Counted from the first letter of the stretch, positions 6,421 to 28,374 are shown. The stretch is DNA of 39,847 nt from an uncultured Pseudomonadales bacterium (GCA_905480475.1 CAJQQO010000007.1:1-39847), one strand, 5' to 3'. Notes: generated by a model not told the origin, from the sequence alone. Made by a program: numbers and translations.

Positions 6421-6444
6421 GCAAGTCGTTCGATGCCAAATGGT

Positions 6445-7344
6445 TTAATCAGCAAAGTTTTGATATTGCTCGGCAATCGTTTCCAAGCGCCAAGGTTTTG
6501 CTTCGCTGGCATCGATATAAGCCATAATTTTTTCTTGCGGCCAAGCAAAGCCTCCCAAGTGCCTACCTGATATTGATAATAGCTGTCCGCTAATATTGCT
6601 GGCTGCGTCACTTATTAAATACTCATAGGCAGCGCAAATAAATTCTGGGGGTAATGCGGTAAGCGCAGATTCCAATCTTTGTTTGTCTAGCATACCTCTT
6701 GAATGCAAGGTCCGCATATTTTCTTCAAATACTTCACCGCTTGATAAGCGGGTTTTAGCGCCGGGCATAATCACATTGCAGCGCACATTGTGTTCTGCCA
6801 AATCTTTAGCAATTGCCGCACTTAAACTATTAATAGCACCTTTAGCTGCGGCATAAGCTGTGCCGCCATAGATACCTTGAAAAGCATGACTGCCGGTATT
6901 GATAATACTGCCGTGTTTCTGCGCCGACATTAGTGGCGCGGCATGGCGGCAAGTATTAAACGTGCCGTTAAGATGTACGTTAATCACTTGCTGCCAATCA
7001 TCGGCTGCAATATTTAAAATAGAACTGCCAGAGGGTTCGGCAATACCGGCGATATTAATTAAGCCATCGATACCGCCATAGTTATCAACACATTGCTGAA
7101 TCAGTTCGCCAGCGTAATTGTAATCCGCTACCGAGCCACAACTGTAGCTAGCGGTTCCGCCGTTAGACCTTATTTCACTAACGGTATCGCTAAGTGCTTG
7201 AGTATTGTTTTTACCGCCGCCGCTACTATTAATTAAAACACTAGCGCCTTTACTGCTAAGTGCAATCGCAACGGCTTTACCGATGCCCATACTTGCGCCA
7301 GTAATAACAATACGTTTTTCTTTTAGGGCTGAGGTTTTTTCCAT
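6445..7344 (-). CDS. SDR family NAD(P)-dependent oxidoreductase
   Basis: Rossmann TGASMGIGKA, NIAG, active site S..H..YGGTAYAAAKGAI, VRCNVIMPGA. Confidence 0.9.
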   Translation of the reverse strand: MEKTSALKEKRIVITGASMGIGKAVAIALSSKGASVLINSSGGGKNNTQALSDTVSEIRSNGGTASYSCGSVADYNYAGELIQQCVDNYGGIDGLINIAGIAEPSGSSILNIAADDWQQVINVHLNGTFNTCRHAAPLMSAQKHGSIINTGSHAFQGIYGGTAYAAAKGAINSLSAAIAKDLAEHNVRCNVIMPGAKTRLSSGEVFEENMRTLHSRGMLDKQRLESALTALPPEFICAAYEYLISDAASNISGQLLSISGRHLGGFAWPQEKIMAYIDASEAKPWRLETIAEQYQNFAD

Positions 7345-10096: not shown

Positions 10097-10711
10097 ATGA
10101 AAATTACGATTATTTCTGGCAGTCATCGTCAAAACTCACAAAGCACCAAAATAGCCAAAGCTATGCAAAGTGCCTTAGACGCATTGCCGCAGTGTGATGA
10201 AAGTTATTTATTTGATCTGGCGGATAATCCATTGCCATTGTGGGATGAAGGCATATGGAACGGCGATGCAAAATGGCAGGCTTTACTTGGTCCTATCTCA
10301 GAGCAGTTGGCCAGTAGTGATGCCTTTATTGTGATTGCGCCAGAATGGCATGGAATGGCACCGGCAGGATTAAAAAACTTTTTCTTAATGTGGGGCAAAG
10401 GTGAGCTAGCGCATAAGCCGGCATTAATTGTTACGGTTTCTTCTGCTGACGGTGGTTCTTATCCGGTCGCTGAGTTACGGATGAGTAGTTATAAAAATAA
10501 TCGTATTTGTTTTTTACCCGAGCATTTGATCGTGCGTAATGTTGAGTCGGTATTTAACGATGATGACAAGGATAATAATCCTTCGGCGCAACCGTATTTT
10601 GACGATCGATTAGATTATTGTTTAAAGCAGTTACTCACCTATGGTGAGGCGTTTAAGCAGATTAGGGCCAGTGATGCGGTGAGTCTTGAGACTTATGGCA
10701 GTGGAATGTAA
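10097..10711 (+). CDS. NAD(P)H-dependent FMN reductase / flavodoxin-like oxidoreductase
   Basis: MKITIISGSHRQNSQSTKIA N-terminus, flavodoxin-like fold segments PEWHGMAPAGLKNFFLMW. Confidence 0.88.
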   Translation: MKITIISGSHRQNSQSTKIAKAMQSALDALPQCDESYLFDLADNPLPLWDEGIWNGDAKWQALLGPISEQLASSDAFIVIAPEWHGMAPAGLKNFFLMWGKGELAHKPALIVTVSSADGGSYPVAELRMSSYKNNRICFLPEHLIVRNVESVFNDDDKDNNPSAQPYFDDRLDYCLKQLLTYGEAFKQIRASDAVSLETYGSGM

Positions 10712-11962: not shown

Positions 11963-12853
11963 TTACAGGCTTGCAACAAGTTCGCAGGCGCGATCTAACT
12001 CAGTGATATCGCCGGTAGTTGGCGTCAGTATTACTTCGTCGTAGCCAATCGCTTCTAGTTGTGCGATGGCTTGTTTAATATGCTCGTTGGAATTTAGCCA
12101 GCATAAATTGGCGGTCTTTTTGGCGTAGTCATCGCCAAAGATTTTCATATAGTCCATCGCAAAATCTTTTAATTGTGTTTCTGCTTGATCTCCCAAGCTA
12201 AACCATAGGGCGACTTGCATCCATGGTTTGCCCTCGCGACCACTGTCTTGCCATAGCGATAAAAAGCGCTGGTAAATCTTTTTTAGTTCGGCCATATCAC
12301 CGGTAAGATTAAAGCCGGCTAAGCCATCGGCCCACTGTACTGCTCGCGCCATGGATTTTGGTCCCAAGGATGAGCTAAATATTTTAGGCCCGCCAGCTTG
12401 TATTGGCGCTGGGCCAATTTTTGGCGCATCAGGAAATTCAAAATTGCCCGACCAAATATCTTTAATGGTTTTAATTTGTTTGTCGAGTCGAGCAAGACGC
12501 GATTTAAAATGCGCCTGTTTGTTCATTAAAGCGTAATCGTATTCACGCATGCCCACGCCAACCCCCAGGGTAAATCGGCCGCTAGACAAAACATCAATAG
12601 TCGCAGCTTGTTTAGCGACGAGTACTTCTTCGTGATAGGGTGTAACTGCGATCAGTGATTGTATGGGAACGCGTTCAGTTAAAACAGCAGCGGCTGACAG
12701 TACGCATTGTAAATCTAAAAATGGGCTGGCGATTCGTTCGCCGGTGGCGAGCCGCGAAAACGGTCCTTGATCAATGGCCGCAATCCATTGTCGTAATGTT
12801 GCTATATCAACATCGGCAACTGTAGACGGAATAGACATACCAATTTTAATCAT
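11963..12853 (-). CDS. LLM-class (luciferase-like) flavin/F420-dependent oxidoreductase
   Basis: KIGMSIPS N-terminus, VLAERVPIQSL-like barrel strand, ATIDVLSSGRFTLGVGVGMREYDY, GPAPIQAGGPKIFSSSLGPKSMARA. Confidence 0.88.
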   Translation of the reverse strand: MIKIGMSIPSTVADVDIATLRQWIAAIDQGPFSRLATGERIASPFLDLQCVLSAAAVLTERVPIQSLIAVTPYHEEVLVAKQAATIDVLSSGRFTLGVGVGMREYDYALMNKQAHFKSRLARLDKQIKTIKDIWSGNFEFPDAPKIGPAPIQAGGPKIFSSSLGPKSMARAVQWADGLAGFNLTGDMAELKKIYQRFLSLWQDSGREGKPWMQVALWFSLGDQAETQLKDFAMDYMKIFGDDYAKKTANLCWLNSNEHIKQAIAQLEAIGYDEVILTPTTGDITELDRACELVASL

Positions 12854-12902: not shown

Positions 12903-13889
12903 CTAATCCTGCATGGCTTTAACATAAGGCCATACCTCAGTTTCAAATAATTTAAGACCTTGCCATGCAAGCGCAGGATCGAGCCCGCCTAATAATGGAC
13001 ATAAAATAAATGTTCTATCGCGACCTAGATTGTTAATCATAGTAACGGCATCTTTAGGGTTTAAAATTTGATAAGCACCACTTGCGCGCAAGTCGTTAAC
13101 ATTAACGCCACCAGCAAATGGGCCAGCGGCTTTACCGTAGGCTTCTTTAGTCCACTCGGCGTAAGATTCAACCACGTGTTGCGCATGAGGCATAATCTTT
13201 TGCCAATCGGCTTCGGGGTCATTACTCACATGTGTGTATATGGGGCCAAGCGCTTTAAATTTTTCGCCGGGATCTGGCTTGCCTAATTCAAGACAGGTGT
13301 TGCGATAGATATCCCAGTTTTCACCGGCGGGCGGATAAAAGCCATCGGCAATATGTGCGGCGCGCTTGGCGACAGCAGGGTGAGTACCGCCCAATAATAA
13401 TCGCGGCGCAGGATTGGGTACGGGTGTAATGGTGATGCTGCGTCCTTCATAGTCAAAAGTTTCTCCGGACCAAGCTTGGCGTAAAAACTTAAAGGCATTA
13501 ACGTATAAGTCTTTTCTATCTTCGCGTCGCTTGCCAAACATTTGAAATTCGTAAGGGCGGTAACCCGCGCCAATAACCACTTCCAAGCGGCCTTGGCAGA
13601 GGTATTGTGCCACCGACAAATCTTCTGCAAGTTTTACCGGATCATAAATAGGCGCTTGCAATATATTCGGCCGTACAGTGATGCGCTGAGTTCTCGCGCC
13701 AATTGCTGATGCCATAGGTATAGGCGATGGAAGATAACCATCATCTGCCGCGTGGTGTTCGCCTAAGCCCACTGCATCAAAACCAATATCGTCTGCCCAG
13801 ACACACATATCTAATGCGGCATCATAGAGCTGCTGTGTATCAGCGCCAAAAGCGGGTGCTCGCATATCAAAGCTAATGACAAATTCCAT
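12903..13889 (-). CDS. LLM-class (luciferase-like) flavin-dependent oxidoreductase
   Basis: MEFVISFDMRAPAFGADTQQLYDAALDMCVWADDIGFDAVGLGEHHAADDGYLPSPIPMASAIGARTQRITV; AEDLSVAQYLCQGRLEVVIGAGYRPYEF. Confidence 0.9.
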   Translation of the reverse strand: MEFVISFDMRAPAFGADTQQLYDAALDMCVWADDIGFDAVGLGEHHAADDGYLPSPIPMASAIGARTQRITVRPNILQAPIYDPVKLAEDLSVAQYLCQGRLEVVIGAGYRPYEFQMFGKRREDRKDLYVNAFKFLRQAWSGETFDYEGRSITITPVPNPAPRLLLGGTHPAVAKRAAHIADGFYPPAGENWDIYRNTCLELGKPDPGEKFKALGPIYTHVSNDPEADWQKIMPHAQHVVESYAEWTKEAYGKAAGPFAGGVNVNDLRASGAYQILNPKDAVTMINNLGRDRTFILCPLLGGLDPALAWQGLKLFETEVWPYVKAMQD

Positions 13890-14123: not shown

Positions 14124-15101
14124 TTACTCTCTTCCTAATACAACTAATACTTTGCGTTTGCGCTCACCTGAGTAGGGTAGTCGACCATGCATAGCTAAAT
14201 GATTATGAACAACGGCGACATCGCCGTCTTGCCATTCAAGATTATAGGATACAGATTTTGCAATCGATACCATGGTATCCAAAAATGTTTTGCTAAGCTC
14301 TGAATCATCACCAAAACATAATGCAGTAGCTGGGTTTTCTTTCACGCCTTGCCAGCCCAAGTAAGCCGCGATAATTTGATTAAAGAAAACTTTACGGCCA
14401 CCTTGTAGCGTTCTAATGGCTGGTAGTGCAGCGGTTTGTGCCACTAACGCGTCGTTATCTTTCCATTGCCAAGTGTAATGTAGGCTGCGCAGTTTTTCTT
14501 CTGCCTCTTCTGCAGAGCCAACACTTAATGTGCCTTTCCAACTACGGCCTTGGCCAGTTTCAGGGTCGTCATCACAAGGCATTAAAGTGGTGTACTTAAT
14601 ACCGACACTTTCTAATTTGTTAGTCAGTTCTGGCTCGGCTTTAACTAGTTCATCGTAAATCGTATCGGATCGACAAATAACTGTTTCACCGCCTTTATCT
14701 GCAGCGCTTTCACAAAATAGTGAAATAATGCTGGGGTAAAATGGCGTTTGTGCCATTTCATTGTGAATAAAAATTTCAACGTCTTTAGGTGCTTCGTTGG
14801 CAGTAAACACTTTTTCGGTATGATTGATTCTCACCGCGTTAGATAAGGATTCTTTATAGGTAAAGTTATCGTAGCCAAAGGCAGAGAAAAACGCATCGTA
14901 ACTCTTGGCGTCACAGACTGGAAAGCCTCTAAATAAAATAGCGCCTGTGCAGCCAAGTTCTTTTTTGATCGGTGTTAAGTTTTTAGCTAACCACTGTTCA
15001 GCTTGTGCTAAGGTCTGCACGGAACCATCATTTTTAATAACGGTTGGAAAATGTTGCTGATTGTATTCAAGATCACTCAGCATGTTACTTGTATAGGGCA
15101 T
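14124..15101 (-). CDS. TauD/TfdA family (SyrP-like) Fe(II)/alpha-ketoglutarate-dependent dioxygenase
   Basis: GAILFRGFPV, metal-binding IHNEMAQTPFYPSIISLFCESAADKGGETVICRS, distal VVHNHLAMHGRLPYSGERKRKVLVVLGR. Confidence 0.9.
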   Translation of the reverse strand: MPYTSNMLSDLEYNQQHFPTVIKNDGSVQTLAQAEQWLAKNLTPIKKELGCTGAILFRGFPVCDAKSYDAFFSAFGYDNFTYKESLSNAVRINHTEKVFTANEAPKDVEIFIHNEMAQTPFYPSIISLFCESAADKGGETVICRSDTIYDELVKAEPELTNKLESVGIKYTTLMPCDDDPETGQGRSWKGTLSVGSAEEAEEKLRSLHYTWQWKDNDALVAQTAALPAIRTLQGGRKVFFNQIIAAYLGWQGVKENPATALCFGDDSELSKTFLDTMVSIAKSVSYNLEWQDGDVAVVHNHLAMHGRLPYSGERKRKVLVVLGRE

Positions 15102-15150
15102 TCCGTTATCTCCTGTTCATCTAGTTAACGCGCGTTTGTCTTTAATGGCG

Positions 15151-16110
15151 CTAATCGTAGATTGGATAAAATTTATTAAACGCGGCTTCACAAAAGTTAC
15201 CGGGGTCATTGAATCTACGATTTCTATTTAGCTCGGATATATCCTGCATATCTTGTTCGCTTAGCGAGAAGTCAAAGATATCAAGGTTCTCTTTTAAACG
15301 TTCGGGCTTGGTGCTTTTGCTAACTAAGGTGCAGCCGCGTTGTACACCCCAGCGCAATACGATTTGCGCCTCAGTTTTTTTGTACTTGGCGGCGATAGCG
15401 ACCACAATCGGCTGTGCTAGTACTGACTCAAAAGCTTCGGCCATATCCAATTCAAAATAGGACATCGCACCTAATGGTGAAAACGCGGTTACCGCAATAC
15501 CGTAGTCTTTGGCTAGGCGTATTAAGCGCTCTTGCGTTAAGTAGGGGTGCGATTCAATTTGTAAATCGGCTGGTTTTATTTTGGCGTAGCTCATTAGGTC
15601 ATTGAGTAGACCTGAGTTGTAGTTGCAAACGCCGATAGTCTTTGCCAAACCTTGCTCAACCAGCGTTTCCATTGCGCGCCATGTTTCAGATAGCGGTACT
15701 GGTGCCGTTTGCATTTTGGGTTCGGCTGCATCTGGATCAAAAAACCACTCGGGTGGGTAGCGAGTTTCAAAGGGTACAAATGGTTGGGCGATAGGAAAGT
15801 GAATTAAATAGGAATCAAGATACTCTAGACCCAAATCGCTTAAGGTTTTTTCCAAGGCCGGTTTGACATGTTCTGGGCTGTGGTAGGTGTTCCACAGTTT
15901 CGAGACAATGGTTAAATCTTCTCGTGTACAAATTCCGTCGGCAATTGCACGGGCTATTCCTTGACCGACTTCGACTTCATTGCCGTAGTCGCAAGCACTA
16001 TCGAGATGGCGATAACCCACTTTGATGGCGTTGTATACAACATCGGCGCATTCTGAATTGGGTATTTTCCATAACCCTAAGCCGATCGTGGGGTTTTGCT
16101 GTTCTGCCAT
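15151..16110 (-). CDS. aldo/keto reductase
   Basis: GLGLWKIPN, YRHLDSACDYGNEVEVGQGI, SKLWNTYHSPEHVKPALEKTLSDLGLEYLDSYLIHFPI, IGVCNYNSGLLNDL, PLGAM, IVLRWGVQRGCTLVSKSTKPERLKENL. Confidence 0.95.
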   Translation of the reverse strand: MAEQQNPTIGLGLWKIPNSECADVVYNAIKVGYRHLDSACDYGNEVEVGQGIARAIADGICTREDLTIVSKLWNTYHSPEHVKPALEKTLSDLGLEYLDSYLIHFPIAQPFVPFETRYPPEWFFDPDAAEPKMQTAPVPLSETWRAMETLVEQGLAKTIGVCNYNSGLLNDLMSYAKIKPADLQIESHPYLTQERLIRLAKDYGIAVTAFSPLGAMSYFELDMAEAFESVLAQPIVVAIAAKYKKTEAQIVLRWGVQRGCTLVSKSTKPERLKENLDIFDFSLSEQDMQDISELNRNRRFNDPGNFCEAAFNKFYPIYD

Positions 16111-16150
16111 TTTTGCCTCGCAAAGCGTTGACTATTGATGTTAATATGTA

Positions 16151-16162
16151 TCTTATATAAGA
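16151..16162. promoter_or_regulatory. TCTTATATAAGA palindrome, putative GntR operator (site A)
   Basis: ATGTATCTTATATAAGACATAT, about 40 bp upstream of the aldo/keto reductase start; same 12-mer at 18964 and 24881. Confidence 0.7.
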
Positions 16163-16339
16163 CATATGTTTTGTCAATCATTTATGTCGGGTATTTTACG
16201 CTACTGCCTAAATTACCAGCGATTTTTTAGCGGATGATTCCTAGGCTTGAGATGCGCAAGCGGGCAAGACGACTTATGCTAAGGTCGGTATCTATTAATA
16301 AGCTTATAAGCCAGCGATTGCTAAGACGGGTTTAGATTT

Positions 16340-18070
16340 ATGTTGAATACACGGGTGAGCCGATTTTTGCCGGGTTTGGTTTGGTTGCAGGGGTATCGGC
16401 AAGGCGTTTTTAAAAGTGATTTGTTTTCCGGCATTACCATTGCATTTATGCTTATCCCGCAGGGCATGGCTTATGCCGTGGTTGCGGGTTTGCCGCCCGA
16501 ATACGGACTCTATGCTTGCATCTTCCCGCCAATTATTTACGCCTTATTAGGTACGTCGAATAAAATCTCCATAGGTCCGGTTGCGCTGGATTCCATTTTG
16601 ATTATTACTGGCTTAAGCGTACTGGCGGAACCGGGTACCGAGCATTATCTGGAGTTGGCGATTGCACTGACTTTATTAGTGGGGTTGATTCAGGGCTTTT
16701 TCGGTCTAATTAAATTTGGTTTTATCGCCAACTTTTTATCGCACCCGGTTATTGTCGGTTATACCTCAGCAGCAGCGCTGGTTATTATTGCTAGTCAGCT
16801 TGAAAGTATGCTGGGAGTGGATGTCGCGGGTGGTAATGTCTTTCAAATAATCTACCAGCTGCTACAACAATTCACCGATTGGAATTGGCTTACCGTTGGT
16901 ATAGGTTTAGCTGGTTTATGGTTTATGATTTATCCCAAACGTTTTTTCAAAAGCTTACCTAGCGCTTTATTATTAATGATAATCGGTATGCTGTGCTCGG
17001 GGATCTGGGGCGCACAAAGCTACGGCGTGGATGTGATTTCATCAGTCCCTCAAGGTTTGCCTTCATTAACAATACCCAAGTTATCCATATCCGAATTGGT
17101 TGGCCTATTGCCAGTTGCGCTAACGGTCGCGCTAATGGGTTATGTAGGGACGATGTCGATCTGTAAATCGCAGGAAAAACCGACCGATAAAATTTCTGCC
17201 AGACCTAATCAAGAGTTGCTGGCGGTCGGTGCGGCAAATTTCCTAGGTGCGTTTTTTAAAGCTTTTCCGGTCTCGGCAAGCTTTTCCAGAAGTGCGGCGT
17301 TTAGAGAGTCGGGCGCTTTAACGCAGGTATCCGCTGTCGTTAGTTCGTTGTTTATTTTGATTACGGTACTGTTTTTAACACCGTTTTTTACCAGTTATCC
17401 CTTACCTAAGGCTTTGCTGTCGGCAATTATTATCGTCTCGGTTGCGGGTTTATTTAAGTATGGACAAATGAAAGTACTGTACCAGCAAAACCGTCGTGAA
17501 TTTTTTATTTTGATGACCACCTTTGTGATTACTTTATTGCTCGGTGTGCAGCAGGGCTTGTTATTAGGTGTCGCGCTGTCGATTCTGATGGTTATCTATA
17601 ATACCGCCAATCCCCATATGACCGAGTTAGGTTCTATTCAAAACGGCAGTTTGTTTAGAAATGTTAACCGCTTTAGTGAGGCTGTAGTGCGAGACGATGT
17701 GCTGATTTTTCGTTTTGATGCACCGCTTTATTTTGCCAACAAGGATTACTTTGTTGAAAATCTTTACGCTTGGGTAAAACGCAGAGAGAGTGGTTTATTA
17801 AAGTATGTGATATTTGATGCGGAGGCGGTGAATAGTCTCGATAGCACGGCGATACTGACGTTGCAGCAAGTGATCGAGAACTTTAAAGATCAGGATATTG
17901 AGTTTTTTATCAGTAATCCGATTGGTCCGGTTAGGGATATTATTAAAAAATCGTCTTTGTGTGATTATATGTGTGAGCAGTCAATGTTTTCAACCATTCA
18001 CGATGCAATTACTTATATTGATGATGGCGTGAATATTCATGCGGAAGAGGCGCTGCAAACTAACGATTAG
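16340..18070 (+). CDS. SulP family anion transporter with C-terminal STAS domain
   Basis: FSGITIAFMLIPQGMAYAVVAGLPPEYGLYACIFPPIIYALLGTS, FPVSASFSRSA, C-terminal STAS segment (VLIFRFDAPLYFANKDYF...LKYVIFDAEAVNSLDSTAI). Confidence 0.95.
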   Translation: MLNTRVSRFLPGLVWLQGYRQGVFKSDLFSGITIAFMLIPQGMAYAVVAGLPPEYGLYACIFPPIIYALLGTSNKISIGPVALDSILIITGLSVLAEPGTEHYLELAIALTLLVGLIQGFFGLIKFGFIANFLSHPVIVGYTSAAALVIIASQLESMLGVDVAGGNVFQIIYQLLQQFTDWNWLTVGIGLAGLWFMIYPKRFFKSLPSALLLMIIGMLCSGIWGAQSYGVDVISSVPQGLPSLTIPKLSISELVGLLPVALTVALMGYVGTMSICKSQEKPTDKISARPNQELLAVGAANFLGAFFKAFPVSASFSRSAAFRESGALTQVSAVVSSLFILITVLFLTPFFTSYPLPKALLSAIIIVSVAGLFKYGQMKVLYQQNRREFFILMTTFVITLLLGVQQGLLLGVALSILMVIYNTANPHMTELGSIQNGSLFRNVNRFSEAVVRDDVLIFRFDAPLYFANKDYFVENLYAWVKRRESGLLKYVIFDAEAVNSLDSTAILTLQQVIENFKDQDIEFFISNPIGPVRDIIKKSSLCDYMCEQSMFSTIHDAITYIDDGVNIHAEEALQTND

Positions 18071-18130
18071 TTGCAAAGACTGTTAAAAAGATAGTTCAGG
18101 AAATAGTTAAAAAAATAATTAAGAAAACAG

Positions 18131-18865
18131 CTAAGTGACACTAACCGAGTAGATAAAACTCCGTGTATCACATAAGCTGGATCGCCATTCAATACATTGA
18201 TTATTGATGGTCTTGGCGATGCGATCGACTCTGATTAGTGGTGTACCCACATCAAGCGCTAGGCGTTTGGCGGTTTGCTTATTGGCCAGCTCGGCTTGTA
18301 TTTGCTCTTCAGCATTGGCGACAGAGATACCGTATTCGCGTTGATACAGTGGGTAAAGCGATGCGGAAACGGCCGCCTGCTGGTCAATTTTTGGAAACAG
18401 CGCCTGCGGAATAATAATCGTTTCAGCGACACAAGGGGTTTGATCAACCATCCGAAGCCGACGAATCTCATAGACTTGTTCTTTATCTTTTAGCGCCAAA
18501 ACACTTTGTTCTTGGCGCTTGGCTGCTCGTTGTTTAATCGATTCCACCACGCCTTCGGGTTTTAGTCGGCTACCATCCTGACGAACCAAGCGGAAAAAGC
18601 GAAAGTTGGAGGCCTCATTGGTGTGTTCGGTAACAAATGTGCCCTTGCCCTGGCGGCGTTCAACCAGCTTTTCGGCCTCTAAGGCATTGAGTGCCTTACG
18701 GACAGTACCTTGACTTACACCAAGTTCCGCCGCTAAAGCGAATTCGCTGGGTAGATTTTCTGATGGTTTCCAGTCGCCATCGGAGATGCGCTTAATCAGC
18801 TGCTCGTATACCTGCTTGTATAGCGGCTGGAATCCCAGCGTGTTTTTCATAATGCTTATATCCAA
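18131..18865 (-). CDS. GntR family transcriptional regulator (HutC/UTRA type)
   Basis: PLYKQVYEQLIKRISDGDWKPSENLPSEFALAAELGVSQGTVRKALNALEAEKLVERRQGKGTFV plus UTRA-like C-terminus. Confidence 0.95.
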   Translation of the reverse strand: MDISIMKNTLGFQPLYKQVYEQLIKRISDGDWKPSENLPSEFALAAELGVSQGTVRKALNALEAEKLVERRQGKGTFVTEHTNEASNFRFFRLVRQDGSRLKPEGVVESIKQRAAKRQEQSVLALKDKEQVYEIRRLRMVDQTPCVAETIIIPQALFPKIDQQAAVSASLYPLYQREYGISVANAEEQIQAELANKQTAKRLALDVGTPLIRVDRIAKTINNQCIEWRSSLCDTRSFIYSVSVT

Positions 18866-18903
18866 TAAAACGGTGTAACAGAACAGGCATATTACGCGAT
18901 TAT

Positions 18904-18915
18904 CATTATATAAGA
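18904..18915. promoter_or_regulatory. degenerate operator copy (CATTATATAAGA; site B)
   Basis: TTATCATTATATAAGACATCTG, about 40 bp upstream of the GntR start; right half matches sites A and D (TTATATAAGACAT). Confidence 0.5.
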
Positions 18916-18963
18916 CATCTGAGCTAGCTTATAAAGGATGTGTGTTTAAAATGGATATCTTAC

Positions 18964-18975
18964 TCTTATATAAGA
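18964..18975. promoter_or_regulatory. TCTTATATAAGA palindrome (site C), overlapped by a second palindrome TAAGATATCTTA
   Basis: GGATATCTTACTCTTATATAAGATATCTTATTG in the divergent GntR / FAD dehydrogenase intergenic region. Confidence 0.7.
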
Positions 18976-19067
18976 TATCTTATTGTAAAAGTTATCATTG
19001 GCAGGTATGATTTTGAGTTAATAGCGGCGACCCGCAGCTTTTGCGTGGTCTTGAATAAGCCTTAGCG

Positions 19068-20690
19068 ATGAAATTAAGAAATAACAATCTCGATAAACTG
19101 GGTAATGGCGTCTACGATGTGCTGATTTTAGGCGGTGGCATTAATGGCGCTGTTGCTGCTGCGTCTCTTGCCGCCAAGGGCGCAAAAGTTGCTTTAATTG
19201 ATAAAGGCGACTTTGCCGGTGAGACTAGCTCCAATTCCTCCAACCTTGCTTGGGGCGGTATTAAATATTTGGAGAGTTACGAGTTTTTGCTAGTTAACAA
19301 ACTTTGCCAAAGTCGAAATCACTTAATGCGCAGTTACCCCTCTACTGTTAAAGAGGTTCGTTTTCTTACCACGATTCAAAAAGGCTTTCGCTATCCGCCT
19401 TTTTTTGTATTTCTTGGTAGCATTTTATATTGGTTTATAGGTCGGTTTTTTACTCAAGCACCAAAATATCTTAGCGCTGGCATGTTAAAGCGCCGTGAGT
19501 CGGTGATTGATACCAGTAGTGTGGCCGGTGGCTTTGAATATTCTGATTGTTATCTGTATGACAATGATGCGCGCTTTGTATTTAATTTTATTCGCTCGGC
19601 CCTAAGCTATGACTGTGTCGCTGCTAACTATGTTGAGTCCTTAGGTTCCGAGCGCGCCAATGGTATTTGGTCAACCGTCGCACGCGATAATATCAGTGGT
19701 GAGATAATCACCATAGAATCCAAAGTACTGATTAATGCCTGTGGGCCTTATGTTGATCAACATAATCAAATGACACAGCAAAACACCGAACATAGACATT
19801 TGTTTTCTAAGGGAGCGCATCTAATTGTCGATCGAATCACCGACAGTACACGAGTGCTGGCATTTTTTGCCAGCGATGGACGATTGTTTTTTGTGATTCC
19901 GATGGGGCCCAAAACCTGCATAGGCACTACCGACACTCAGATTGAATCTCCGCATGCAAGTGTGAGCGACGAGGATCGACAATTTATCTTGGACAATGCC
20001 AATACGCTATTAAGACTTGATCGACCCCTAACCACTGACGATATTATTGCTGAGCGCTGCGGTGTACGCCCATTGGCGTTAAAAGGTGAGGATGGTGTAG
20101 CCGATTGGGTTAAGCTATCGCGTAAGCATGTGATTGATATTAATAATCAAGATCAGCATTTAAGTATATTTGGTGGCAAACTAACCGACTGTATTAATGT
20201 GGGCGATGAGGTAGCAGATATTGTTACCGACTTAGGTATTAAGCTACCCTATGCCGATAAGATTTGGTATGGAGAAGCCGATGATGCAATTAAACAAGAA
20301 TTTGTGCATCAAGCGCGGTTGATGGGTTTGGATGCTATGACATCTCCATCCTCTTCCGAACCTCTAACGCAACGACTATGGCGACGCTATGGAGCCAATG
20401 CAATCGCAATGCTCGAGGCCATTCGCAAAGATCCAGCTAGCGCGCAGTTATTAATAGAAAACGCTGAGTATTTGCGCTGTGAATTAGAGCATACCGCCGA
20501 GCACGAAATGATTACCAAGTTAGAGGATTTTTTACGCCGACGATCTAAAATTGAGTTGGTGATTCCTCGCGAAGATATTATCAATGCGCCGGGTTTATAT
20601 AAGGCTTGCAAAATTTTATTTGCCGATCAAGCCGATGCCAAATTGCAGGAATATGTCGATTCTTTGCAAGTGCAAAATGAAGCCGCTTAA
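19068..20690 (+). CDS. GlpD-like FAD-dependent oxidoreductase (glycerol-3-phosphate dehydrogenase family)
   Basis: DVLILGGGINGAVAAASLAAKGAKVALIDKGDFAGETSSNSSNLAWGGIKYLESYEFLLV; INACGPYVD; GTTDTQIE; DAO C-terminal-like region ...FLRRRSKIEL. Confidence 0.88.
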   Translation: MKLRNNNLDKLGNGVYDVLILGGGINGAVAAASLAAKGAKVALIDKGDFAGETSSNSSNLAWGGIKYLESYEFLLVNKLCQSRNHLMRSYPSTVKEVRFLTTIQKGFRYPPFFVFLGSILYWFIGRFFTQAPKYLSAGMLKRRESVIDTSSVAGGFEYSDCYLYDNDARFVFNFIRSALSYDCVAANYVESLGSERANGIWSTVARDNISGEIITIESKVLINACGPYVDQHNQMTQQNTEHRHLFSKGAHLIVDRITDSTRVLAFFASDGRLFFVIPMGPKTCIGTTDTQIESPHASVSDEDRQFILDNANTLLRLDRPLTTDDIIAERCGVRPLALKGEDGVADWVKLSRKHVIDINNQDQHLSIFGGKLTDCINVGDEVADIVTDLGIKLPYADKIWYGEADDAIKQEFVHQARLMGLDAMTSPSSSEPLTQRLWRRYGANAIAMLEAIRKDPASAQLLIENAEYLRCELEHTAEHEMITKLEDFLRRRSKIELVIPREDIINAPGLYKACKILFADQADAKLQEYVDSLQVQNEAA

Positions 20691-20723
20691 CTAACGGCAT
20701 AAGATTATTTTAAAAAACATTTT

Positions 20724-22826
20724 TTGGGATTTGGGTTGATGGCTAATTTTAACTCTGCTGAGCCAGCGTGGAATGATATTCCTGCATTAGATATAACGGC
20801 TGCGGCAACGCTGCTTGATGCAGAGACGGTTTTATTTAAAACCAGCGAAGGTGATTTGCTGATTAATCTATTTGCCTTTGGCGCGCGCTTGCGTTTTGCC
20901 GAGTGTCAGTTTGGCGACTATGGCATGTTGTTAGATGATGCCTTGCAAAGTAAAGCTGCATTAACACTGGATGCCGATAAGCAGCGTAGTGTTATTAAAG
21001 GTGGCGATTATATTTTAACGGTTCAGCATCAGCCGTTTTCCTTTGAGCTAAGCAAGGCTAATAAAGCGGTTCAAAAATCACCTACTGACGGGCATTTTGT
21101 TCGCCAATTTCGTTTGCCGCCGGTTGCGCGGCTAGATGAAGGCTGGTTTGTAAGTTTGGAGCTGGCATCTAACGAACCCGTCTATGGCTTGGGTGAAAAA
21201 TGGGGTGGTCTCAATAAGCGCGGGCAGTTGTTACGTTCTTATAATCACGATGCACTCGGTGTTAATGCAGAAATATCCTATAAAAATACGCCCTTTGCTT
21301 GGAGCCCTAATGGATGGGGCGCATTTGTTCACACGCCTGCGCCGGTCACTCACGGTGTAGGTTTTGCGCCGTGGTCGCAGCGCGCTTATGGTTTATTGGT
21401 TGAAGATACTTCACTGGATTTATTTTTATTAGCCGGTAATGACGGTGCTGAAATTATTCAGCACTATACCGCCATAACCGGCCGCGCGCCGGTGCCGCCG
21501 TTATGGAGCTTGGGGCTTATTCTTTCTAAAGCCTACTACCAAGATGTTGATGAATTATTAGCAACGGCCCATGCAGTGCGCGAGCATAAAATGCCTTGCG
21601 ATGTAATTACCATTGATGGGCGTGCTTGGCAGGATACTGATACACGATTTGCATTTGAATGGGATCCAAAACGTTATACCGATCCAGCGGCAGTGATTAA
21701 TGAATTAAAGTCTTTGGATTTTAAAGTTTGTATTTGGGAGTACCCATTAGTCTCGGTTAAAAATCCGCTGTTTGATGAGATGTCAAAAAAGGGTTGGCTG
21801 CTAAAAGATAAACGTAGCGGCGAGACCTACCGTTATCAATGGGATATGAGTTGTTTTGGTGAGGTGCTAACACCTCTGCCTGACTCAGGCATTGTCGACT
21901 TCACTCATCCCGATGCCTACGCATTTTGGCTCGAGAGCCATAAGCCTTTATTCGATTTGGGTATCGATATGATTAAGGCAGATTTTGGCGAACAGATCGA
22001 AGAAAATATGCAGGCGCACAATGGTGATTGTGGCGATGTTCTGCATAACGCTTATACACTGCTGTACAACCGCTGTGTTTATGAGGCGGCAGAAAAATAT
22101 TGTCAGACGGGGGCGTTTTTATTTAGTCGCTCGTCGTGGATTGGTTCGCAGCGCTATCCCGCCCAATGGGGTGGTGATCCGCAAGGTGACTGGGGTGGTT
22201 TAGCCGGTAGTTTGCGCGGCGGTGTTTCATGGGGAATGTCCGGTGCACCTTTTTATGCTACCGACGTTGGCGGCTTTTATGGCGATCAACGAGATGCCGA
22301 ACTCTATGTGCGCTGGACACAGGCATCTATTTTTTCTGCACATATTCGTTTGCACGGTATTGGTCAGCGTGAACCCTGGAGTTATATTGACGAGACTTTT
22401 GGTGAAACAGCGAGTAACGCCGCTTCTGCGGCACTGCAGTTACGTTATCGCTTGCTGCCGTATTTACAACAAGCCATGGTAGAGGCAAGTGAAACCGGTA
22501 TGCCAGTGCAGCGTGCTATGGTTTTGGCTTTTCCAAATGATCGCGCGGCGTGGGCATTTGAAGATCAGTTTATGTTTGGCGAGCAACTATTAGTTGTGCC
22601 ATGTTTAGAAGCGGGTGGTAATGTCGAGTTTTATTTACCTGCGGGTAAATGGCGGCGGTTTTTGGCTGACGAAATTTTTGAAGGCGGTCAATACCATCGC
22701 TTAACGTTGGCGTTAGACGATATGGCCGTATTTGTTCGTGACGGTGAAAAGATCCCCTTAGGCCCAGAAATTGAAAATACTTGTGCCCTAGAAGGTAAGC
22801 CGGCCATTGAAACTTATTGGCCATAG
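20724..22826 (+). CDS. glycoside hydrolase family 31 alpha-glycosidase (YicI/alpha-xylosidase-like)
   Basis: VYGLGEKWGGLNKRGQ, putative nucleophile MIKADFGEQI, putative acid/base QWGGDPQGDW, SLRGGVSWGMSGAPFYATDVGGF, RLHG, LLPYL. Translation may start at 20739 (MANFNSAEPAW). Confidence 0.92.
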   Translation: MGFGLMANFNSAEPAWNDIPALDITAAATLLDAETVLFKTSEGDLLINLFAFGARLRFAECQFGDYGMLLDDALQSKAALTLDADKQRSVIKGGDYILTVQHQPFSFELSKANKAVQKSPTDGHFVRQFRLPPVARLDEGWFVSLELASNEPVYGLGEKWGGLNKRGQLLRSYNHDALGVNAEISYKNTPFAWSPNGWGAFVHTPAPVTHGVGFAPWSQRAYGLLVEDTSLDLFLLAGNDGAEIIQHYTAITGRAPVPPLWSLGLILSKAYYQDVDELLATAHAVREHKMPCDVITIDGRAWQDTDTRFAFEWDPKRYTDPAAVINELKSLDFKVCIWEYPLVSVKNPLFDEMSKKGWLLKDKRSGETYRYQWDMSCFGEVLTPLPDSGIVDFTHPDAYAFWLESHKPLFDLGIDMIKADFGEQIEENMQAHNGDCGDVLHNAYTLLYNRCVYEAAEKYCQTGAFLFSRSSWIGSQRYPAQWGGDPQGDWGGLAGSLRGGVSWGMSGAPFYATDVGGFYGDQRDAELYVRWTQASIFSAHIRLHGIGQREPWSYIDETFGETASNAASAALQLRYRLLPYLQQAMVEASETGMPVQRAMVLAFPNDRAAWAFEDQFMFGEQLLVVPCLEAGGNVEFYLPAGKWRRFLADEIFEGGQYHRLTLALDDMAVFVRDGEKIPLGPEIENTCALEGKPAIETYWP

Positions 22827-22918
22827 TTCTATAGGTTAATCGCGCTACGCATTTATTTAGCCTAAAGCGATATCAGTTTTTATAAATAATCCTCTCCACG
22901 GTAGGGAGTAATAATAAA

Positions 22919-24652
22919 ATGGCTTTAGATGATCTCTTATTAACGTTTGGATCGTGCGCGTTTTTTATGGCGCTGGTGGCTTGGGTTTCTTACCAAAAAA
23001 CCAAGGGAGAGGTCGATACCAAAGACGGATATTTTCTTGCCGGTCGTGGTTTAACCGGGGTATTTATTGCCGGCTCAATGCTGTTAACCAATTTGTCTGC
23101 CGAACAATTGATTGGTCTTAACGGCTCAGCCTATGGTTTTAATATGAGCAGCATGGCTTGGGAAGTGACTGCCGGTGTGAGTACTATCTGCATGGCGCTG
23201 ATTTTCTTGCCGCGCTATTTAAGCGGTGCTTTTACTACCTTACCCGAGTTTTTAAGCAGTCGTTTTGATGATGATGTTAGACGCTTAACTGTTATTTTAT
23301 TTATGGTCGGCTACGGCCTTGTCACTATCCCCTCTGTATTATATTCCGGCTCTATTGCGGTGATGCGTTTATTTGATGTGCCGGGATTGCTTGATGTAAG
23401 TTACAGCCAAGGGCTAATGATAACGATTTTAGTTGTCGGCATTATTGGCGGTTTGTATGCGGTATTTGGTGGCTTAAAAGCCGTTGCTATTTCTGACACC
23501 ATCAACGGTTTTGGTTTGCTGATTATCGGCATATTGGTACCGATTTTGGGTTTTGCTGCGCTAGGTGATGGCAGTGTGATGGATGGTATAAAAACGGTTA
23601 CCACTACCCACACTGAAAAACTCAATGCGATTGGCGGGCCTAAAGATCCTACGCCGTTTGGTACGATTTTTACCGGTATGATTTTCGCCAATTTATTTTA
23701 TTGGTGTACCAATCAATATGTTATTCAACGAACGCTAGGAGCGAAAAATCTAGCTGAAGGGCAGAAGGGCGTTATCTTTTCAGGCTTTTTTAAAATTCTG
23801 GTGCCTTTTATGATGATGATGCCGGGCATTATTGCATTTCATCTTTATGGTGGTGGGCTGCAATCGATTGACTTGGCGTTCCCGCAATTAATTAAAGATG
23901 TGTTGCCAGTTTATATGTCGGGGTTTTTTCTGGCGGTATTATTAGGTGCGGTATTTAGTTCGTTTAACTCTTTATTAAATAGTGCAGCAACACTTTTTTG
24001 TTTAGATGTTTATGAACCCTTAAAGAAAGAAAAAGTTAGCGATGCGCAAATGATTAAAGTCGCTAAGATCGCCAGTATAGTGATCGCTATCTTTTCTTTT
24101 ATTGTCGCACCATTATTGCAATACGCCCCTGAAGGTTTGTGGCAGATAATTAGAATATTTACCGGCTTTTATAATATCCCCGTTGTTGCTGTAGTTATCG
24201 TGGGTTTATTTACCAAGCGTGTTCCGGGTCTTGGCGCTAAGGTTGCCATTATTTTTCATATTATTGCTTATGGCTTATTAAAGTTTGTTTTTGACGAGCA
24301 GATCGATATTCACTTCTTACATCTTTACGCAATATTATTTGTAATTGAAGTCGCGATTATGTTGCTTATTGGCTATTTCAAACCCTTAGAACAGCCTTGG
24401 CAGTTTGAGCGCAAGCATGAAGTTGAGTTAGTGCCTTGGGCTTATGCGATACCAGTATCCATTACCTTGTTTTCATGCATTGCCGCTTTGTATGTATTGT
24501 TCTCACCCGTTGGTTTGGTTACCGGATTCGGCCCACTATTTTGGCCAGTGATGACACTTATATTGCTGCTAAATATTATTGGCTGGTTTTATAGTTTGAA
24601 ACGCTGGCGTTACACCTATGCGGATTACATTAAGAAAGAGACTGCTTCGTAA
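22919..24652 (+). CDS. sodium:solute symporter (SSS family, SglT-like)
   Basis: DGYFLAGRGLTGVFIAGSMLLTNLSAEQLIGLNGSAYGFNMSSMAWEV; multi-TM; GAVFSSFNSLLNSAATLFCLDVYEPL. Confidence 0.94.
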   Translation: MALDDLLLTFGSCAFFMALVAWVSYQKTKGEVDTKDGYFLAGRGLTGVFIAGSMLLTNLSAEQLIGLNGSAYGFNMSSMAWEVTAGVSTICMALIFLPRYLSGAFTTLPEFLSSRFDDDVRRLTVILFMVGYGLVTIPSVLYSGSIAVMRLFDVPGLLDVSYSQGLMITILVVGIIGGLYAVFGGLKAVAISDTINGFGLLIIGILVPILGFAALGDGSVMDGIKTVTTTHTEKLNAIGGPKDPTPFGTIFTGMIFANLFYWCTNQYVIQRTLGAKNLAEGQKGVIFSGFFKILVPFMMMMPGIIAFHLYGGGLQSIDLAFPQLIKDVLPVYMSGFFLAVLLGAVFSSFNSLLNSAATLFCLDVYEPLKKEKVSDAQMIKVAKIASIVIAIFSFIVAPLLQYAPEGLWQIIRIFTGFYNIPVVAVVIVGLFTKRVPGLGAKVAIIFHIIAYGLLKFVFDEQIDIHFLHLYAILFVIEVAIMLLIGYFKPLEQPWQFERKHEVELVPWAYAIPVSITLFSCIAALYVLFSPVGLVTGFGPLFWPVMTLILLLNIIGWFYSLKRWRYTYADYIKKETAS

Positions 24653-24880
24653 AACATTACCGAATAAAAATTGTTTGTTTAATAAGAGACCGTTTAAAAC
24701 GACAGTGTTTAATACGGCATTGAAGAATAAGAAAAAATTGTTTATTCAGTATGCAAATGTTTTGTATTGTTTATTTCTTAAGCGAAAGGGTCTTTTCTGC
24801 ATGCTAATAAATGACTGAAATTTCGCCGAATCATATGTCGATAATTTAATACTCCGCTGATTCGTACACTAGTTACTATA

Positions 24881-24892
24881 TCTTATATAAGA
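24881..24892. promoter_or_regulatory. TCTTATATAAGA palindrome, putative GntR operator (site D)
   Basis: ACTATATCTTATATAAGACATCATC, about 185 bp upstream of the TonB-dependent receptor start. Confidence 0.7.
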
Positions 24893-25076
24893 CATCATCT
24901 GTATGATACTTCGCTTCTAGTGTCTTATGGGTAATGCTGCTGGTTGAATAGCAATCAGTGAGGATTTACCAAATCAAGTCGCTACGAGTATTGGGAAGTT
25001 TTGAAAAATAACTACCGGCAGTTTTGTTAGACCGGTTATAACTAGATCAAAAAAATACCAACGGGAGAGTTCCATT

Positions 25077-27341
25077 ATGATGAAAAAAACAGCAGTGAGT
25101 CGGGCTTTGGCCTTGATGATACCTGCGAGTCTGGCTTTTCAGGCTCCAGTCGCGTTAGCGTTGGAAGAGATTGTTGTGACATCTCAGAAGCGCGAACAAA
25201 GTTTAAGTGATGTTCCTATCGCTGTATCAGTATTAGGAACAGAACAAATCGATTCTACTTTTTCAAATAGTATTGAATCACTTCAGGCGTATATTCCTTC
25301 GGTGAGTTTCCGAACGGGTAATACTACGCGTAACTCGGCATTAACCGTGCGTGGTATTGGTACTGTTTCGTTTAGTATTGGTGCTGAGCCAAGTGTCTCA
25401 ACAGTAGTTGATAACGTTGTGCTTGGTCGTTCTGGCCAAGCGTTTGGCGATTTGTATGACTTGGAGCGCATAGAGGTATTACGTGGTCCACAAGGCACTT
25501 TATTCGGTAAGAATGCATCGGCAGGTGTAGTTAACTTAGTGACTAAAAAGCCAACCGAAGAGTTTGAAGGCTATGTTGATTTCTCTTTCTTCCAAGATGA
25601 TGAGTATCGAGCTAAGGCGCGTGTATCGGGTAAATTAACCGATAGAATTAACGCCAGCGTAACCGTGATGGACGCGGAGTTTGATGGCTATATCGATAAC
25701 GTATTCACTAATGAAAAAGTTAACGGCTATGACAAGCAGGGCATTCGTGCGATGTTTGATGTAGAAGTCAGTGATGACACACAAGCATTAATTATTTATG
25801 AGGATTATGATGCCGATAATGACTGCTGTGATGATCTGGTAGGTAGAAACACTAATGCCTCGCGTCCATTAGATCCTTCGGTATTTGTTTCAGGCTCGGG
25901 TTTGAATCTTGATCAGCGCAGTGTCGATCATGATTTCCAAACACGTACGCTAGACTCAACAACCGCGCTGTCTTTGCAGTTGGTTAAATCTATTGGCGAT
26001 TATACCTTAACGTCGATTACTGCTAGAAGAACCTGGGAAAACACAGAGTTCCGCGAAGGTGATTTCACTTCACAAAATGGTGATTCAACAGATATCGTAG
26101 ATTTTTCTACCGTTGGTTTCCAGTTGCATGATGTGGGTCCACAAGAGTGGCGTCAATTGTCGCAAGAGATTCGCCTAGCGTCTCCCGGTGGTGAATTGGT
26201 TGATTGGCAAGTGGGTGGTTTTTATTGGGATATCGATTCGGCCCGTAACTTTACCCGTGAAGCCAGTTGTCAGGATACCGCTGATAACACCGCTATCCTC
26301 GTTGCAGCGAACGCCGCAGATACCACTTTGGGTTTAACTTGTCAGCAAAATGATATTGTTTCTGCAACTGCATTTATGAGCACCGAGTTTACTAACTACG
26401 CGGTGTTTGGTGATGCGAGCTGGAATCTTACCGATGCGTTTAGCGTGTTGTTTGGTTTGCGCTATACCGATGACGAAGTAAGCTTTAAACATAATCGTCG
26501 AAACAATGATGAGTTTGGTCGTCGAGGTGTTGGTGTTAGACAAGCGACGCTGGATACAGATTTTGACGGCAAAACTAGCGATACCAATTTGTCTGGTAAG
26601 TTAGGTGTTCAATTTAACCTTGGTGAGAGCAATTTACTTTATGCCACTTACTCTACCGGTTATAAAGGTCCTGCGTTTAACGTTTTCTACAATATGAGCG
26701 CTAACGACATTAACCCAATTGATGCAGAGGAATCTGACTCGTATGAACTGGGTTATAAATACACCGGTGAAAACTTGTTCGTAAGCTTTGCTTTATATCA
26801 AACTGAGATTGATGATTTTCAAGCGAATGACTTCGATGCTTCTGATGGTGTAACGACTACCGGCTTTACCAATGGTGGTGATGTTGAAACCCAAGGCGCA
26901 GAGCTTGACTTTCAATGGCAAGCACTTGAAAACTGGATTCTTCGTGGCGGTATAGCTATTTCTGAAGCGGAAACCACCTTAGGTGATGACCTACCATTTG
27001 CACCAGATTCTAAATACTCACTTACTAGCGATTACACTATAGAGATGAGCAGCGGTTCAGAATTGGTACTTAATGCTTCTTATGTTTATACCGACGAGCA
27101 GTTGTCAGGTAATATTGGCCAAAATGAAATGACTAACCCAGAAGTTTTGCTTCCGGACTACGATATAATTAACGCCAGCGTGACTTACCGTGCACCGGAT
27201 GATACTTATTCAATATCATTAATCGGTAAAAACCTAACTGATGAATCTTATGCAACCACTTACAGTGGTGACGGCTTCCGATATCAAATTCCGCGTGATG
27301 CTGAAAGATACTTTGGTGCCAATTTCAGGTTTAACTTTTAA
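25077..27341 (+). CDS. TonB-dependent outer-membrane receptor
   Basis: Signal peptide, TonB box-like EEIVVTSQKREQSLSDVPIAVSVL, plug motifs VRGIGTVSFSIGAEPSVSTVVDNVVLGRSGQAFGDLYDLERIEVLRGPQGTLFGKNASAGVVNLVTKKP, C-terminal ...YFGANFRFNF. Confidence 0.97.
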   Translation: MMKKTAVSRALALMIPASLAFQAPVALALEEIVVTSQKREQSLSDVPIAVSVLGTEQIDSTFSNSIESLQAYIPSVSFRTGNTTRNSALTVRGIGTVSFSIGAEPSVSTVVDNVVLGRSGQAFGDLYDLERIEVLRGPQGTLFGKNASAGVVNLVTKKPTEEFEGYVDFSFFQDDEYRAKARVSGKLTDRINASVTVMDAEFDGYIDNVFTNEKVNGYDKQGIRAMFDVEVSDDTQALIIYEDYDADNDCCDDLVGRNTNASRPLDPSVFVSGSGLNLDQRSVDHDFQTRTLDSTTALSLQLVKSIGDYTLTSITARRTWENTEFREGDFTSQNGDSTDIVDFSTVGFQLHDVGPQEWRQLSQEIRLASPGGELVDWQVGGFYWDIDSARNFTREASCQDTADNTAILVAANAADTTLGLTCQQNDIVSATAFMSTEFTNYAVFGDASWNLTDAFSVLFGLRYTDDEVSFKHNRRNNDEFGRRGVGVRQATLDTDFDGKTSDTNLSGKLGVQFNLGESNLLYATYSTGYKGPAFNVFYNMSANDINPIDAEESDSYELGYKYTGENLFVSFALYQTEIDDFQANDFDASDGVTTTGFTNGGDVETQGAELDFQWQALENWILRGGIAISEAETTLGDDLPFAPDSKYSLTSDYTIEMSSGSELVLNASYVYTDEQLSGNIGQNEMTNPEVLLPDYDIINASVTYRAPDDTYSISLIGKNLTDESYATTYSGDGFRYQIPRDAERYFGANFRFNF

Positions 27342-27375
27342 ACCATTGTTTTCCATTTTGTCTTGTCGATTGACA

Positions 27376-27402
27376 GGGGCGGTTAAACCGCCCCTTTTTT
27401 TT
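27376..27402 (+). terminator. Rho-independent terminator after the TonB-dependent receptor
   Basis: GGGGCGGTTAAACCGCCCC (27376-27394; perfect stem) followed by TTTTTTTT, 34 nt after the stop codon. Confidence 0.93.
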
Positions 27403-27654
27403 GTCCGCATTTCCTGCCATCCCTCCATGCTTATTTTACTTTTCCGGTGCGATGGGTACTTGCCTTAGGTAGGGTTTTGAATTACTTTCCTAAGCCTTTG
27501 ACGACGGTCAAGGTTAAGCTGATAATGTCCCGCGAGGGTATGGCTTGGCTCAGCTGCTTGCAGCTGTTGGAATGGGCATTAAACCTCGGTACACGTAATA
27601 CGATTCCGAATTAGTGTGTGGTGTTGGTCACAAGAAGTAACACAAGGTAATCCT

Positions 27655-28374
27655 ATGTCTTTAAGTGCGAGCTTTCAGCCGCTTTATAAGCAAGTATACG
27701 ATTTGTTAACTGGCCGATTGGTTGAGGGGCATTGGAAGCCTTCTGAGTCGATACCCAGTGAAATGGCGCTTGCTGAGGAGTTAGGCGTTAGCCAAGGTAC
27801 GGTGCGCAAAGCATTAAACCAAATGGTGGCAGAGAATTTGCTCGAACGGCAACAAGGCAAGGGCACCTATGTTGCCGAGCATACGCAAGAGAGTTCCTTG
27901 TTTCGTTTTTTTCGCCTGCGTGAGCCACATGGTGAAAGCCTAATTCCTGAGACGCAGGTACTATCATCTTCACGTCGAGCCGCCACTCAAAAGGAGCGTG
28001 ATCAGCTTGGGCTAACGGCCAAAGTGCAAGTGGTAGAGTTGCTGCGCTTACGATTTTTAAAAGGTGAGCCAGCGATCTTTGAAAAGGTTATTCAGCCGCT
28101 GTCGGTATTTCCGAATATTGATAAAGAGCAAGTCTTACCTAATTCCCTATATACGCTTTATCAGGAAAAATACGGCATTAGTATTGTCTCAGTGCGAGAC
28201 GAATTGCGCGCCACTGAATTACCCAAGGCGTATGCCAAGCATCTAGGCTTGCCAGCGGGTTCGCCAGTACTGAAGGTAGAGCGAGCGAGTATTCATATCG
28301 ATGGTAGGGTCGTTGAGCTAAGTCACGCCTATTGCAGTACCAAGCACTTTGTTTATTCGGTTCAGCATAAATAA
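27655..28374 (+). CDS. GntR family transcriptional regulator (UTRA type), paralogue of 18131..18865
   Basis: SASFQPLYKQVYDLLTGRLVEGHWKPSESIPSEMALAEELGVSQGTVRKALNQMVAENLLERQQGKGTYV. ATG at 27655 preferred over the ORF-track start 27616 because it aligns with the paralogue and has AAGG upstream. Confidence 0.93.
   Translation: MSLSASFQPLYKQVYDLLTGRLVEGHWKPSESIPSEMALAEELGVSQGTVRKALNQMVAENLLERQQGKGTYVAEHTQESSLFRFFRLREPHGESLIPETQVLSSSRRAATQKERDQLGLTAKVQVVELLRLRFLKGEPAIFEKVIQPLSVFPNIDKEQVLPNSLYTLYQEKYGISIVSVRDELRATELPKAYAKHLGLPAGSPVLKVERASIHIDGRVVELSHAYCSTKHFVYSVQHK

Follow-up and report, generated by a model that had tools for sequence, protein, structure and literature searches.

Our data suggest that a stretch of 39,847 nucleotides from an uncultured marine Pseudomonadales bacterium (GCA_905480475.1 CAJQQO010000007.1:1-39847; here called the window) carries, at positions 14124 to 28374, a locus for the oxygenolytic utilization of sulfoquinovose (SQ). 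Its substrate is very probably sulfoquinovosyl-glycerol (SQGro), the head group of the sulfolipid of algae and plants, which would be split and freed of its sulfur with oxygen so that glucose and glycerol can be catabolized. The chemistry of the two core enzymes is already known, and it is the sugar-splitting enzyme, an alpha-glycosidase of family GH31, that looks like a new type. The core enzymes are a TauD-family Fe(II)/alpha-ketoglutarate dioxygenase (14124..15101, minus strand; PF02668, 104 bits), the candidate SQ dioxygenase, and an aldo/keto reductase (AKR; 15151..16110, minus strand; PF00248, 151 bits), the candidate 6-dehydroglucose reductase in the role of SquF. Their genes are direct neighbors in the window and in nearly all related loci. 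The original prediction, made from the DNA alone, had put 49 bp between them, and exactly 49 bp lie between 15101 and 15151; its coordinates, gene order, strands, and families were likewise borne out by gene calling and a family profile search.

The link to SQ comes from the genes that accompany the AKR-dioxygenase pair in related genomes. In Vibrio sp. CK2-1 (locus L009), a pair 72% and 63% identical to that of the window shares its locus with a TRAP transporter and a YihQ-family sulfoquinovosidase, which scores 856 bits against Escherichia coli YihQ (5aed) and has the GKRxxWxW motif. In genome G269, the pair follows a homolog of 8qc2/8qc3, which are GH188 sulfoquinovosidases (PMC10755693). 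There, an enzyme of the NAD+-dependent GH188 type (SqgA) takes the glycosidase slot beside an AKR-dioxygenase pair of the same type, whereas its fold is unrelated to that of GH31 and GH188 is not present in the genome of the window. GH188 has been reported together with the sulfo-SDO pathway (PMC10755693), and the pathway itself is on record for marine gammaproteobacteria, Vibrio among them (PMC13372026; PMC12890257). In genome G476, a GH31 of the window's clade lies in a cluster with an SDR, a lactonase, an ILVD dehydratase, an HpaI-type aldolase, an aldehyde dehydrogenase, a TRAP transporter, and TauE. The best solved match of the SDR is the SQ 1-dehydrogenase 9gwu, and from its gene content the cluster is a probable sulfo-Entner-Doudoroff (sulfo-ED) cluster of the Pseudomonas putida SQ1 type; it shares both the GH31 clade and the operator with the window, in which ED enzymes are absent and the C-S bond would be cut by the dioxygenase instead.

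The genes for anion handling point in the same direction. The window encodes a SulP+STAS anion transporter (16340..18070, plus strand; TIGR00815, 450 bits, above cut-off), a candidate sulfite/sulfate exporter, in whose place TauE and YeiH are found in Pseudoalteromonas and YeiH in G363/G267; the three exporters are not homologous and have been swapped between lineages. A SorA-like molybdenum sulfite dehydrogenase is encoded directly after YeiH in G359/G1083 (L028, 7073-8479; L057, 16023-17360), and behind it in G1083 (L057) comes a small CxxCH-motif protein. Together with TauE, the SorA-like enzyme points to sulfite as the anion released. This bears on the idea that the locus acts on glycosides of 6-O-sulfated sugars, from which an AtsK-like dioxygenase would release sulfate and a 6-aldehyde, the latter being reduced by the AKR and the former exported by SulP. 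Among the structural neighbors of the dioxygenase, AtsK is about as distant as TauD (12-15% identity), and both SulP and YeiH carry annotations as sulfate transporters. However, not only do SorA and TauE speak for sulfite, but the pair is partnered by sulfoquinovosidases in Vibrio and G269 and the operator is common to the probable sulfo-ED cluster in G476, which makes a sulfate ester very improbable. Indirect as each of them is, the Vibrio and G269 sulfoquinovosidases, the G476 cluster, the exporters and SorA, and the GlpK-GlpD genes described below jointly leave little room for a substrate other than an SQ glycoside. The leaning of the original prediction, a dioxygenase that cuts the C-S bond, an AKR that reduces the aldehyde, and SulP moving the anion, thus gained strong support from the sulfoquinovosidases, exporters, and SorA-like genes of relatives.

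Judged by alignment, the metal and cosubstrate residues of the dioxygenase are intact. H113-x-E115...H305 and R316 are invariant among 10 relatives (alignment A2), and H113, E115, and H305 are invariant in 19; R316 lies 11 residues past H305, the position of the alpha-ketoglutarate arginine. The nearest solved relatives of the dioxygenase are 9yut and Arabidopsis At3g21360. The former belongs to five recent PDB entries (9yut-9yux) of a TauD/TfdA-like protein, the closest solved relatives by sequence. The AKR is of the xylose/aldose-reductase type, with yeast-type xylose/aldose reductases as its nearest solved structures.

Conservation of the locus extends over SAR92/Cellvibrionales, Pseudoalteromonas, and further gammaproteobacteria. 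Its grouping into one system had been made to depend on synteny between the 14124-16110 and 19068-27341 blocks, and at least eight genomes besides that of the window keep both blocks together. In a scan of named genomes, the dioxygenase was found at nine loci. AKR, dioxygenase, SulP, GH31, the SSS symporter, and the TonB receptor are found together in two Cellvibrionales metagenome-assembled genomes (MAGs; L005, L006) and in HTCC2207 (L007), where GlpD is also part of the set, and a genome of the same genus as the window (G011; L030) has retained the whole set, GlpD included. In the latter, an in-frame TAG splits the dioxygenase gene (5737-6694) of an otherwise intact locus; the gene may have become a pseudogene recently, or the TAG may be an error of sequencing. 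The order in Pseudoalteromonas (L011, L012) is receptor-SSS-GH31-TauE-GntR-AKR-dioxygenase-YeiH. SAR92 H231 (G750; L008/L032) has dioxygenase, SulP, GH31, and SSS but neither an AKR nor a GntR regulator nor a matching TonB receptor; a 1,026-aa protein encoded next to its dioxygenase instead (L008, 11153-14233) is, to judge by its N terminus, possibly a TonB-dependent receptor. A class-wide sample of 369 genomes yielded five further carriers of the dioxygenase, four with the GH31-SSS set and one with a GH188 homolog, and the TonB receptor lay in the stretch read for three of these four. The sodium:solute symporter of the window (SSS family, YidK/PRK10484 type; 22919..24652, plus strand; NF007790, 731 bits versus a cut-off of 401) is kept in related loci, and the TonB-dependent outer-membrane receptor (25077..27341, plus strand; PF00593 and PF07715) has counterparts that adjoin SSS in L005-L007, L011, L012, L025-L027, and L030.

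The GH31 alpha-glycosidase, the candidate sulfoquinovosidase, is encoded at 20739..22826 (plus strand; PF01055, 276 bits) and is the only GH31 in the genome. Its open reading frame was listed from a TTG at 20724, but translation probably starts at the ATG at 20739 because homology starts only at residue 6. An obvious signal peptide was not seen at the N terminus, and the enzyme should therefore be cytoplasmic. Order- and phylum-wide searches revealed a clean gap between members of its clade (at least 54% identity) and YicI-type enzymes (36-39%), and in a GH31 tree, in which one tip (L047) is an artifact of a wrong-frame open reading frame, the clade stands apart from both the YicI and YihQ types (support, 0.99). 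Both catalytic aspartate columns, D405 (nucleophile) and D472 (acid/base), are invariant in the alignment. The known GH31 sulfoquinovosidases (E. coli YihQ, the A. tumefaciens enzyme, and E. rectale SftG) share with it the GH31 fold, both aspartates, and the placement in an SQ locus, whereas identity with the YihQ-type enzyme of Vibrio is only 28-34%. In YihQ, the sulfonate is bound by R301, W304, and Y508; the clade instead has two arginines of its own, R300 (in DGRAWQ) and R308 (at the position of YicI W315), present in 13 of 13 members. R300 and R308 may bind the sulfonate. Their placement near C6 rests on the alignment, since the predicted structure has low confidence precisely at the loops of the active site (residues 301-317 and 467-492).

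The enzyme looked YicI-like in the original prediction, and the alpha-xylosidase YicI is its closest solved structure, with the K414-D416 region kept. C307, F308, and W315 belong to the −1 subsite of YicI; in all 13 clade members they are replaced by G, A, and R, and an additional Arg is inserted. The enzyme scores below the curated NCBIfam cut-off of PRK10658 (444.8 versus 606 bits). The same replacements argue against a non-sulfur alpha-glycoside (isoprimeverose, an alpha-xyloside, or glucosylglycerol) as the substrate, with dioxygenase and AKR sharing its regulator but serving another end. Such a locus would agree with the structural kinship to YicI, the proximity of the AKR to xylose reductase, the YidK-like SSS, and the fact that the ED-type enzymes of G476 resemble those of pentose pathways too. 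Nevertheless, it would leave unexplained the repeated association with TauE, YeiH, or SulP, with sulfite dehydrogenase, and with known sulfoquinovosidases, and we regard it as very unlikely. A xyloside locus read from the Pfam and NCBIfam names alone (xylosidase, xylose reductase) was rejected on gene context and residues.

The glycerol moiety offers a further line of evidence. Between SulP and GH31 lies a gene for a GlpD-like FAD dehydrogenase (DAO; 19068..20690, plus strand; PF01266 and PF16901), a candidate glycerol-3-phosphate dehydrogenase. The protein is 31% identical to E. coli GlpD and retains H233, R317, R332, and K354, with R54 replaced by K; it is the sole GlpD homolog in the genome at the threshold used, and GlpK is encoded elsewhere. 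In genome G640 (L031), GlpK, GlpD, and GH31 are codirectional neighbors, which would explain the GlpD homolog by catabolism of a glycerol aglycone; GlpK-GlpD beside GH31 implies that glycerol is released. Glycerol is the aglycone of SQGro. The alternative raised in the original prediction, a glycosyl-glycerol hinted at by the GlpD homolog, hence merges with the sulfosugar reading, SQGro being the most likely substrate. We also considered GlpD as a dehydrogenase of 2,3-dihydroxypropane-1-sulfonate (DHPS), the sulfonate analog of glycerol-3-phosphate; this is less likely, since GlpK adjoins it in G640 and the oxygenolytic route makes no DHPS.

Several observations weigh against an oxygenolytic SQGro locus. 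BLAST of the dioxygenase against a partial E. coli TauD sequence (235 aa) gave no significant match, an AKR is missing beside the dioxygenase of G750 (L008), and the dehydratase of the G476 cluster scores as an L-arabinonate dehydratase, so that a pentose pathway is possible there. The GlpD-like protein misses the NCBIfam cut-off for GlpD (253 versus 360 bits), which only one of the eight control genomes that gave hits reaches, and GlpD is absent from most related loci. Finally, YihQ R301, W304, and Y508 are not conserved in the GH31 clade, where the columns hold D/Q/N/E/P, F/Y, and F, respectively. This last point, together with an AKR-dioxygenase pair that has no glycosidase nearby (L013), might suggest that the core pathway holds while GH31 cleaves another SQ-containing or an unrelated glycoside, free SQ being the real substrate. 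We consider this unlikely. The dioxygenase is present in every genome found with a GH31 of this clade, the clade also sits in the probable sulfo-ED cluster, and GlpK-GlpD speak for glycerol release. Furthermore, in 10 of 11 tested genomes with the clade, YihQ-type enzymes are absent and so is any convincing GH188; only G621 differs, a MAG of 6.4 Mb with 6% contamination, in which the additional sulfoquinovosidase candidates are no more than 37% and 34% identical.

The genes of the locus also share an operator, as stated in the original prediction. Copies of TATCTTATATAAGACAT, exact or nearly so, are found in the AKR/SulP divergent promoter (16149..16165; distance to the AKR start, 40 bp), upstream of the GlpD-like gene (18962..18978), and upstream of the TonB receptor gene (24879..24895). 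The palindrome TCTTATATAAGA has three exact copies in the 3.5-Mb genome, all at promoters of the locus, and the three perfect genome-wide sites of the 12-bp core are all inside the locus. With one mismatch allowed, a reversed control pattern matched the genome at least as often as the core, and therefore, only exact genome sites carry weight. Of 17 testable related loci, 14 have the core (at most one mismatch) no more than 132 bp ahead of the AKR gene, a count that includes near-identical, nonindependent pairs (e.g., L011/L012); among random 220-bp windows drawn from these loci, the share is 1.2%. The three of the 17 in which it was not found are L009, L029, and L013; L009 and L029 have other sulfoquinovosidases and no GntR relative within the stretch. 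In G476, the exact operator precedes both the GH31-bearing cluster and an unlinked AKR-dioxygenase pair, so that this genome (L033/L034, L059) apparently has two SQ routes in one regulon. Two GntR/UTRA regulators are encoded in the window: regulator 1, of the HutC subfamily (18131..18865, minus strand; PF00392 and PF07702), has a relative (63%) between GH31 and SulP in L005, and regulator 2 (27616..28374, plus strand), the more widely conserved local regulator, has relatives (65-78% identical) that adjoin GH31 or the TonB receptor in L025-L027 and L030.

In our model, SQGro would cross the outer membrane by the TonB receptor and the inner membrane by the SSS symporter and would then be split by the cytoplasmic GH31 into SQ and glycerol. 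As modeled on the sulfo-SDO pathway (PMC12890257), the dioxygenase would hydroxylate the sulfonate-bearing C6 of SQ, with collapse of the product to 6-dehydroglucose and sulfite, and the AKR would convert 6-dehydroglucose to glucose. Sulfite or sulfate may be removed by SulP, and glycerol may be phosphorylated by the GlpK encoded elsewhere and then oxidized by the GlpD-like enzyme. One or both GntR/UTRA regulators may control the whole set via the shared palindrome.

The sulfo-SDO pathway (also sulfo-ASDO), with SqoD and SquF, was reportedly described by Ye et al. in 2023 in Marinobacterium aestuarii, and therefore, the claim of an undescribed system in the original prediction is only partly right. 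By family and gene context, the window resembles that pathway in its Fe/alpha-ketoglutarate dioxygenase-oxidoreductase pair, its links to sulfoquinovosidases (in relatives, not in the window) and to sulfite handling, and its occurrence in marine gammaproteobacteria; it differs in a YicI-like GH31 instead of YihQ or GH188, TonB and SSS uptake, GlpD, SulP, and the GntR operator. For a YicI-like GH31 clade as a gateway for SQ glycosides, for uptake by way of TonB, and for a GntR operator common to the set, we found no description in the open-license literature, and a prior description elsewhere is possible. The GH31 is a candidate for a second sulfoquinovosidase type within the family, coupled to TonB- and Na+-symporter-dependent uptake. 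On balance, it seems rather likely that the clade as a whole gained sulfonate recognition independently, via Arg300/Arg308 on a YicI-like scaffold, that it serves TonB- and Na+-dependent scavenging of SQ glycerides across SAR92/Cellvibrionales, Pseudoalteromonas, and relatives, and that it is common to sulfo-SDO and sulfo-ED under one GntR operator. The output of SQ amounts to billions of tons per year, and its degraders in the ocean are sought (PMC13372026). Since the sulfoquinovosidases known so far fall into the YihQ (GH31) and GH188 types, SAR92, Pseudoalteromonas, and related carriers would, if a further type exists, currently be missed or taken as limited to free SQ. The locus supplies a named outer-membrane receptor, symporter, and operator as candidates for sulfosugar uptake, and the GH31 clade is a direct test case for convergent sulfonate recognition in GH31.

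The locus is flanked by two adjacent genes for luciferase-like monooxygenases (11963-12853 and 12903-13889) and one for an FMN reductase (10097-10711), which score below every curated NCBIfam cut-off. We had considered them as a SquD/SsuE-like arm of the system and dropped the idea, as they were not found in related loci. Two genes for DUF3604 proteins lie in the window, one on each side of the locus (7980-9983 and 38869-39813), and a DUF3604 gene also adjoins the SSS gene in L008.

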